Shown piece by piece: positions 39,302-40,608 of a stretch of 64,000 bases of DNA (position 1 is its first letter; each line of letters begins with the position of its first letter). Under the pieces are notes generated by a model that made no database searches, was not told the DNA's origin, and saw only the letters and a program-made list of their open reading frames with translations. Source of the stretch: Acetomicrobium thermoterrenum DSM 13490 (lineage in GTDB: Bacteria; Synergistota; Synergistia; Synergistales; Acetomicrobiaceae); the NCBI RefSeq assembly GCF_900107215.1, contig NZ_FNPD01000009.1:1-64000 (forward strand). The letters are read 5' to 3'. The position numbers were made by a program, and so were the translations under genes.

Positions 39302-39988
39302 TTACTGCGTTTTGCCGAGGATTTCGTAAAATTGGTCGGGGCTGTATTGAGCAAGCCCCGCCTTCCACGCAAAAACGGCGGCCTGCGTTCTGTCGGGAAA
39401 ATCGAGTTTCTTCAGAATGCGACTGACGTGGTTTTTAACGGTTTTTTCGGACAAAAACATTATCTGAGCGATATTCTGGTTTGAAAAGCCCTGGGATAAC
39501 CAATAGAGGACTTCCTTCTCCCGTGGAGTAAGGTGATCAAGTTGAGCTGTATCTTTCTCGATTAGCGAGACAGGTTTTTTGTATGTCTCCAATCTTGGAT
39601 CATTATAAGGATCGGCCTTGGCCACGTTACGAATTGCCGACAAAAGATCCTCTGCCTTGGAAGATTTCAGTATACACCCATATATGCCTAACTTCCTCAG
39701 ATTCTGCAATCTATCGTGATAATTATTCTCTTTGGAAGTCAATAAAACACACCTGAAGGGCGCAAACTCTTTGGAGAGTTCGGGGATGGGTCCAATGCTA
39801 CCTTTATCCAGAAGCTCATCGTCATACACAATGACATCTGGGCGCAGGGAACTAATAACATCCCGCATCTCTTCAGCACGGCATATCTCTCCCACCACCG
39901 AAATATCCATTTCCAACTCCAACACACGCTTTATGCATTCACGATATAATCTATGCCTGTTTGCGATGACTACTTTAATAGTCTGCAA
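39302..39988 (-). CDS. Atypical response regulator with LuxR-type HTH
   Basis: About 228 residues. Receiver-like domain (1-120): the phosphoacceptor position (VIVYDD), the Thr (VLLTS) and the Lys (GCILKSS) are present, but the N-terminal acidic pair that binds Mg2+ is replaced (IANRH where IADDH is usual). The C-terminal domain is a clear LuxR/NarL helix-turn-helix (LTPREKEVLYWLSQG, NIAQIMFLSEKTVKNHV). The TTG start at 39988 is preceded by AAGGAGG at 39998-40004, which touches the 3' end of the tRNA-Sec gene; any longer reading would run through the tRNA. No sensor kinase is nearby. Role unknown. Confidence 0.85.
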   Translation of the reverse strand: MQTIKVVIANRHRLYRECIKRVLELEMDISVVGEICRAEEMRDVISSLRPDVIVYDDELLDKGSIGPIPELSKEFAPFRCVLLTSKENNYHDRLQNLRKLGIYGCILKSSKAEDLLSAIRNVAKADPYNDPRLETYKKPVSLIEKDTAQLDHLTPREKEVLYWLSQGFSNQNIAQIMFLSEKTVKNHVSRILKKLDFPDRTQAAVFAWKAGLAQYSPDQFYEILGKTQ

Positions 39989-40003
39989 TAGGTTAATCCT
40001 CCT

Positions 40004-40101
40004 TGGCGGAGGCGCGTGGGGATCGAACCCACCCGGGCCAGCCCTCACTGACCCACACCAGATTTGAAGTCTGGGGGCCGCACCAGCGACCAACCGCCTC
40101 C
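40004..40101 (-). tRNA. selC: tRNA-Sec (UCA), selenocysteine tRNA
   Basis: 98 bases on the minus strand ending in an encoded CCA (40004-40006). Anticodon UCA (40065-40067) in a CUUCAAA loop on a 5-bp stem CCAGA/UCUGG; a 6-bp D stem GGUCGC/GCGGCC with the 4-base loop UGGU; a 7-bp long variable arm GGGUCAG/CUGGCCC; T arm GUGGG-UUCGAUC-CCCAC; G discriminator. These are specific tRNA-Sec features. The acceptor can form seven pairs, while the eighth, usual in bacterial tRNA-Sec, is G-G (40094 with 40015). It is charged with serine by SerRS and converted by SelA. It lies 21 bases after the sigma gene and directly abuts the Shine-Dalgarno of the regulator. Confidence 0.93.
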
Positions 40102-40122
40102 TCGATCCCTTAAATATTATAG

Positions 40123-40608
40123 TCATTCCCCTTCCTTGTCCAGTTTCATTAAAAGCCTTGCCTTCTTCCTGACCCTTGTTATAGCATTCTCCGTCTTTTT
40201 GTACGGCCATGACAACAGATTCGCAGCGTCTGCGATATTGCCGCTGATTAGGAGGGCCCTTAAAGCCTCCCTCTCCATTGACGTCAACAAATCGAACAGA
40301 TCTTTCAAAAACTCCTTTTGTTTCAACTTCTCATCCACGTCCAAATCGTCCGATACTTCCGCTGCAGCGTCCAAAGAAACGTAATCCTTCGTCTTGTTTT
40401 TTCTCAAGTAGGATATCATGGCATTACGGACGCAGGTTCTTGCAAATGCCGGAAAATGCCCTCTATTTTCATCATATTTTCTAATAGCGTGATATAATCC
40501 TATATAACCTTCTTGAACCAAATCTTCTTTCAAATGTGGGTCGCCGTTAGACAGCATAGAAGCCATCTTCAACACTAGAGGCATATAATTGATAAATATT
40601 TTGTTCAA
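40123..40608 (-). CDS. Short sigma-70-family sigma factor (SigH-like)
   Basis: 161 residues. Region 2 is clear (DLVQEGYIGLYHAIRKYD, then FPAFARTCVRNAMISYLRKN, the -10-recognition helix), followed by an acidic linker and a region 4 helix-turn-helix (SMEREALRALLISGNIADAANLL, then KKTENAITRVRKKARLL). It has no region 1.1 or region 3. It resembles SigH of Firmicutes more than ECF factors. Start is TTG 40608 behind AAGGAG. It is followed within 21 bases by tRNA-Sec and then the response regulator, so the three probably share a transcript. No anti-sigma gene is adjacent. Confidence 0.85.
   Translation of the reverse strand: MNKIFINYMPLVLKMASMLSNGDPHLKEDLVQEGYIGLYHAIRKYDENRGHFPAFARTCVRNAMISYLRKNKTKDYVSLDAAAEVSDDLDVDEKLKQKEFLKDLFDLLTSMEREALRALLISGNIADAANLLSWPYKKTENAITRVRKKARLLMKLDKEGE

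Follow-up and report, generated by a model that had tools for sequence, protein, structure and literature searches.

A tRNA-Sec gene flush with the Shine-Dalgarno sequence of a relocated DegU-type regulator gene in Acetomicrobium, probably within one transcript

The selC locus and its neighbours

The window, that is, the whole 64,000-nt stretch of Acetomicrobium DNA analysed here, carries on its minus strand, one behind the other, genes for a sigma-70-family protein, tRNA-Sec (selC) and a response regulator (Table 1). The initial annotation had set the end of the sigma gene at 40123, tRNA-Sec at 40101-40004 and the regulator start at 39988, and ARAGORN, Rfam and the ORFs returned the very same bases. 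selC is the sole Rfam match within the window; it scores 75.4 bits against RF01852 (E 1.2e-13; Rfam gathering threshold 47) and has a UCA anticodon. On the minus strand the junction reads ...CGCCTCCGCCA followed without a gap by AGGAGGATTAACCTATTG..., leaving a 9-nt spacer between AGGAGG and the regulator TTG at 39988. The longer motif AAGGAGG (40004-39998) had been said to share one base with the tRNA-Sec 3' end; indeed it does, and its leading A is A76 of the tRNA.

Table 1. Features of the selC locus in the window
Feature	Position	Strand	Basis or remark
Sigma-70-family gene, 161 aa, TTG start, upstream neighbour of selC	40123..40608	-	ORF, Sigma70_r2
Predicted sigma-70 promoter of selC: TGGACA 40142-40137, 17 nt, TAATAT 40119-40114	40114..40142	-	
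tRNA-Sec (selC), 98 nt, anticodon TCA, CCA encoded	40004..40101	-	ARAGORN + Rfam
Regulator Shine-Dalgarno (SD) AGGAGG	39998..40003	-	0 nt from CCA; conserved in congeners
DegU/NarL-type (LuxR-type HTH) response regulator, 228 aa, TTG start	39302..39988	-	ORF, GerE, Response_reg

The regulator matches GerE (E 2.8e-21) and Response_reg (E 5.4e-9; 36.7 bits vs a cut-off of 30.2). An alternative ORF running in frame through tRNA-Sec (40210-39302) was rejected and the start behind the tRNA taken as the real one, because the frame relative to the tRNA shifts by 2 nt between species. In the sigma protein region 2 is clear (Sigma70_r2, E 3.5e-18) and region 4 divergent. It exceeds the cut-off of the generic sigma70-ECF superfamily model only and falls far under those of the SigH models (TIGR02859, 43.9 bits vs 294.8), so the label 'SigH-like' given to it in the initial annotation does not hold.

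The host genome encodes selB, above cut-off, on contig C3 beside a selA ORF that is known by this adjacency and by its own sequence, as well as selD, above cut-off, on contig C1 (G000:C1:200496-201428). With SelA, SelB and SelD all encoded, selC should therefore be in use. The selD gene contains one in-frame TGA, which makes SelD itself probably a selenoprotein. selAB lie on a different contig from selC, and selC has no coding overlap with selB.

Conservation of the junction and origin of the regulator gene

Searching RF01852 in the host genome and 150 relatives yielded 108 selC loci, which were extracted and oriented. The sigma gene adjoins selC in families f1, f2, f5 (g24), f7, f8 and f10, across gaps that mostly measure 11-73 nt and reach 281 nt at one locus, and ends 21-22 nt before selC in all five congeners. 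Since this pair is shared across several families, and PNP is situated further upstream in many families, sigma-selC is an old syntenic neighbourhood. The genes behind selC vary, e.g. a TrmB-like methyltransferase in f2 and an ADC-family protein in f10, and among the selC loci of the order the regulator occupies this place only in Acetomicrobium. The link between selenocysteine supply and transcription control that had been read from the three genes is therefore weak, the sigma-selC pair being old and the regulator a late arrival in Acetomicrobium alone. In f2, the methyltransferase gene starts 21 nt behind selC, with GGAGGG 7 nt behind CCA (L023:1598-2528, L028:1598-2570), which by its sequence is a second tight selC-mRNA junction.

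tRNA-Sec is followed by AGGAGGAT in 5/5 Acetomicrobium genomes (G000-G004), and CCA-AGGAGG is identical in these five and in A. hydrogeniformans. Across G000-G004 the regulator start codon is TTG, ATG or GTG, at 9 or 7 nt from the SD. Identity to the window amounts to 95-99% for tRNA-Sec and 61-97% for the regulator, and falls to 61-63% for the latter while the junction stays identical. A flush SD is absent from the other 103 selC loci of the order, where the nearest lie 7 nt (f2) and then 23-40 nt (f10) behind selC. When 84,980 species genomes were scanned by pattern, the same junction with the regulator came up in Acetomicrobium sp. UBA5826, UBA3949, A. hydrogeniformans and one Synergistaceae MAG. 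The spacing between tRNA genes and SDs was likewise sampled by pattern search, and in 61 genomes no other tRNA has its CCA 3 nt or less from GGAGG, the leftover matches having been dismissed as non-tRNAs on visual inspection. The occurrence in all five congeners, set against 0/103 other loci and no other tRNA in those 61 genomes, argues that the flush junction is beyond chance. The junction is thus real and conserved within the genus, and gene order in close relatives, which the initial annotation had singled out for comparison, bears this out: the selC-regulator order is kept in all five congeners and in A. hydrogeniformans.

Orthologues of the regulator, 42-48% identical, occur in many families of the order. 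They adjoin a PP-loop (TtcA-like) gene and fliD in several of these, and stand directly behind a DegS-family kinase (PF05384) in f5 and f7. Because Acetomicrobium genomes keep fliD elsewhere, gene content indicates that the regulator gene itself moved, i.e. that it is a relocated DegU orthologue. The orthologue of the sister family f2, located elsewhere in its genome, has the same TTGCAGACTATT start and an upstream region of its own with TATAAT, which suggests that the regulator promoter was lost on moving. dN/dS analysis of the regulator was based on few changes among close species.

The Acetomicrobium receiver keeps Asp, Thr and Lys, whereas the acidic pair D-D is replaced by N-R in the window and by N-R, N-E or N-K across the genus, leaving the phosphorylation site incomplete. 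For the DegS sensor domain no covering match was found in the five Acetomicrobium genomes, where only kinase-domain matches turned up (query about 162-381); full-length DegS matches exist in f2, f4, f5, f7 and f9. We infer from these changes a loss of phosphorylation control, with the regulator apparently an orphan whose kinase has been lost. The acidic pair has also disappeared, apparently independently, from orthologues in f8, f10 and part of f6 (L154, L158, L161, L143). An in-frame TGA in the f6 orthologues was considered as the mark of a selenoprotein regulator and rejected; this stop is found at the C-terminal limit of the match, outside residues 1-217.

Predicted transcription, folding and processing

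The promoter predicted before selC would start transcription ~6 nt before the mature tRNA, and it overlaps a TATAAT at 40121-40116 (spacing 15 nt). All five congeners have TGGACA or TAGACA, 17 nt, and TAAGAT or TAATAT, and the -10 ends 12-13 nt ahead of tRNA-Sec. The -35 sits within the sigma coding sequence, so that constraint on the protein may account for part of its conservation. Order-wide, -10-like boxes matching at 5/6 or 6/6 positions precede selC in 63/106 loci, compared with 17% of shuffles, and most of them end 11-16 nt before tRNA-Sec. Between selC and the regulator start, a scan for sigma-70 consensus sites revealed no promoter of at least 8/12 in the five congeners. Similarly, no terminator was predicted within 110 nt behind selC in these species by a method blind to Rho-dependent termination; a terminator-like hairpin follows selC in 54/108 loci of the order. 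At seven loci of f10 and f3 (g21), namely L021, L022, L034, L041, L081, L082 and L105, CCA is directly followed by ~7 T and no further hairpin is present, which looks as though tRNA-Sec itself served as terminator hairpin.

Given the shared promoter before selC and no predicted promoter or terminator in between, a single selC-regulator transcript is likely, and the tail of this tRNA-Sec transcript probably gives rise to the regulator. One transcript for all of sigma, selC and regulator had been proposed, and the selC-regulator part of this proposal stands; the sigma gene need not share it, since a promoter of selC itself is predicted in the sigma 3' end. A strong promoter directly before 40101, a terminator after 40004 and a separate regulator start had been named as arguments against a joint transcript. 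A promoter is indeed predicted there, whereas neither the terminator nor a separate promoter of the regulator is.

Computed folding indicates that AGGAGG can pair with CCUCC of the tRNA-Sec 3' acceptor strand. Computed SD accessibility is only moderate, 0.3-0.5 unpaired in most species and 0.06 in G004 by free fold. When the tRNA structure is enforced, accessibility is similar in precursor and processed mRNA in 4/5 species; it drops to 0.00-0.07 with the tRNA 5' half missing or unfolded, because CCUCC then pairs with GGAGG. Therefore, in these models tRNA-Sec folding favours an open SD and cleavage is unnecessary for opening it, and the CCUCC/GGAGG complementarity is a by-product of acceptor sequence and SD. 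In the window species a leader, GGGAUCGA, is fully complementary to the T-arm stretch UCGAUCCC, and the SD is buried in the minimum-energy fold. The leader stretch GGGATCGA directly ahead of the tRNA (40109-40102) is the exact complement of T-arm TCGATCCC (40026-40018) and is unconserved in the diverged congeners. A leader/T-arm switch was rejected as a conserved element, as G001 and G004 have not kept the leader and a normal tRNA fold was obtained for the other four species.

As to 3' processing, T. maritima RNase Z cuts right behind CCA (PMC7479834), and RNase E directly generates the CCA end of some tRNAs, according to work cited in that paper. In the host genome no match exceeded the cut-off for RNase Z (TIGR02651) or for RNase PH, RNase E/G is present, and sequence comparison gave no PDB relative for the best metallo-beta-lactamase; an RNase Z of the TIGR02651 type thus finds no support as the 3' cutter. 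The initial annotation held that processing must cut at or inside the ribosome-binding site, which goes too far, because cleavage right behind CCA would leave AGGAGG whole on a 13-15 nt leader. Maturation of tRNA-Sec and translation of the regulator may still be mutually exclusive.

We consider it reasonably probable that selC and the DegU-type regulator form a two-gene tRNA-mRNA unit read from the selC promoter, with the regulator level tracking selC transcription. RNA polymerase would start at that promoter at the 3' end of the sigma gene, make pre-tRNA-Sec and, finding no terminator, read through the regulator to end before the convergent cysS. Lacking a promoter of its own, the regulator would have tRNA-Sec as its 5' untranslated region. 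The tRNA would fold first, leaving the flush AGGAGG about as free as in the processed mRNA, and RNase P would trim its 5' side. A nuclease cut behind CCA would then release tRNA-Sec and a regulator mRNA that starts with AGGAGG and a 5' monophosphate; this mRNA would be translatable and probably less stable, so that the bulk of the regulator is likely to come from RNA not yet cut or never cut. A regulator level that follows selC transcription would suit an orphan regulator apparently devoid of kinase and acidic pair.

Transcription mainly from the sigma promoter, with sigma gene, selC and regulator as one operon, is quite improbable. It would fit the common strand and the 21-22 nt kept between sigma stop and selC in five congeners, but not the conserved promoter-like site in the sigma 3' end directly before selC, nor the -10-like boxes equally distant before selC in other families. 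Even less credible is a promoter of the regulator inside the tRNA gene and independent of selC. Although consensus scans can miss promoters within tRNA genes, the stretch from selC to the regulator start holds no sigma-70-like site of at least 8/12 in five species, and an mRNA started there would carry a piece of the tRNA as its leader, with CCUCC masking the SD.

Other readings accept the co-transcript and differ on its meaning, so our estimates for them overlap with that for the two-gene unit. One, to which we give nearly an even chance, denies any control: a rearrangement would have placed the regulator behind selC, deleting the selC terminator and the regulator promoter, so that the flush SD is a breakpoint fossil and a steady selC promoter drives the regulator. 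The restriction to one genus agrees with this, as do unrelated genes close behind selC elsewhere (TrmB-like at 7 nt in f2, ADC-family at 23-40 nt in f10) and selC genes that abut selA SDs. Against it, the exact 0-nt spacing survives deep within-genus divergence while nearby bases change, a weak objection as both sides are functionally constrained. The opposite addition to the two-gene unit, and compatible with it, is a regulatory coupling in which a 30S subunit bound at the flush SD prevents the 3' cut and the cut, once made, renders the regulator mRNA less stable, such that slow tRNA-Sec maturation raises the regulator. In its favour, the 0-nt spacing is kept in six genomes despite spacer variation (9 or 7 nt) and regulator identities of 61-63%, AGGAGG is complementary to CCUCC and nearly hidden without the folded tRNA 5' half, and a like logic has been proposed for selB-nested selC (PMC8124441). 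However, the CCUCC/GGAGG complementarity is an automatic outcome of combining a GGAGG acceptor stem with a strong SD, the leader/T-arm switch predicted for the window species is missing in the two most diverged congeners, and the regulator has no known selenium link and is unlinked to selC elsewhere in the order, making this coupling unlikely. A slightly more doubtful proposition is that tRNA-Sec acts as a cis-acting leader and that translation of the DegU-type regulator, an orphan independent of phosphorylation, is gated by tRNA-Sec folding and 3' maturation, which would read the precursor state into transcription control. Taken together, sequence comparison makes the tRNA-mRNA co-transcript the most likely arrangement and a regulatory meaning possible.

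Relation to known tRNA-mRNA arrangements

If the two-gene unit is real, a tRNA would be the 5' untranslated region of the regulator mRNA with 0-nt spacing, providing a natural test of whether, on a single RNA, ribosome loading competes with tRNA 3' processing. It would also mean that a DegU orthologue, its kinase apparently lost, has been re-wired through relocation to the selC promoter, and that the alternative-expression idea put forward by Mukai for selB/selC extends to a gene outside the Sec pathway. In the literature searched we found no paper describing the selC-regulator pair.

The architecture itself is of a known kind, because selB-nested and selA-abutting selC genes exist; the DegU-type regulator is the new partner gene. 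In Alphaproteobacteria, Gammaproteobacteria and Nitrospirae, selC is nested in or overlaps selB, and tRNA processing and protein expression were proposed to be alternatives (Mukai 2021, PMC8124441). As there, tRNA-Sec of Acetomicrobium shares expression signals with a neighbouring protein gene; unlike there, where the tRNA lies inside the selB ORF, the SD follows CCA, coding overlap is absent and the partner is a DegU-type regulator. In the selCAB genes of a termite symbiont lineage, as cited in PMC8124441, the tRNA ends at -2 of the selA start. Our pattern scan further uncovered selC abutting the selA SD, with SelA confirmed, in Mycolicibacter sinensis, in an actinobacterium-like MAG filed as Melainabacteria and in a Chloroflexota MAG. 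At L134:6466-6540, in a MAG filed as Melainabacteria, tRNA tail and SD are repeated behind selC (GCCTCCGCCAAGGAGGCGCATG...GCCTCCGCCAAGGAGGCGC), its 3' end having undergone a short duplication. Like these selC-selA(-selB) operons, where AGGAGG and a start codon come directly or at most 2 nt behind CCA, the Acetomicrobium locus has its SD right behind CCA, whereas its downstream gene encodes a transcription regulator instead of a member of the Sec pathway.

The thrU-tyrU-glyT-thrT-tufB co-transcript of E. coli is also an mRNA that forms the 3' extension of a tRNA precursor. There, a spacer separates the tRNA 3' end from the SD, unlike the 0 nt between selC and SD in Acetomicrobium. Finally, the regulator resembles DegS/DegU systems in being orthologous to the DegU-type partners behind DegS-family kinases in f5 and f7, and departs from them in its lost receiver acidic pair and in a genus whose genomes yielded no detected DegS.
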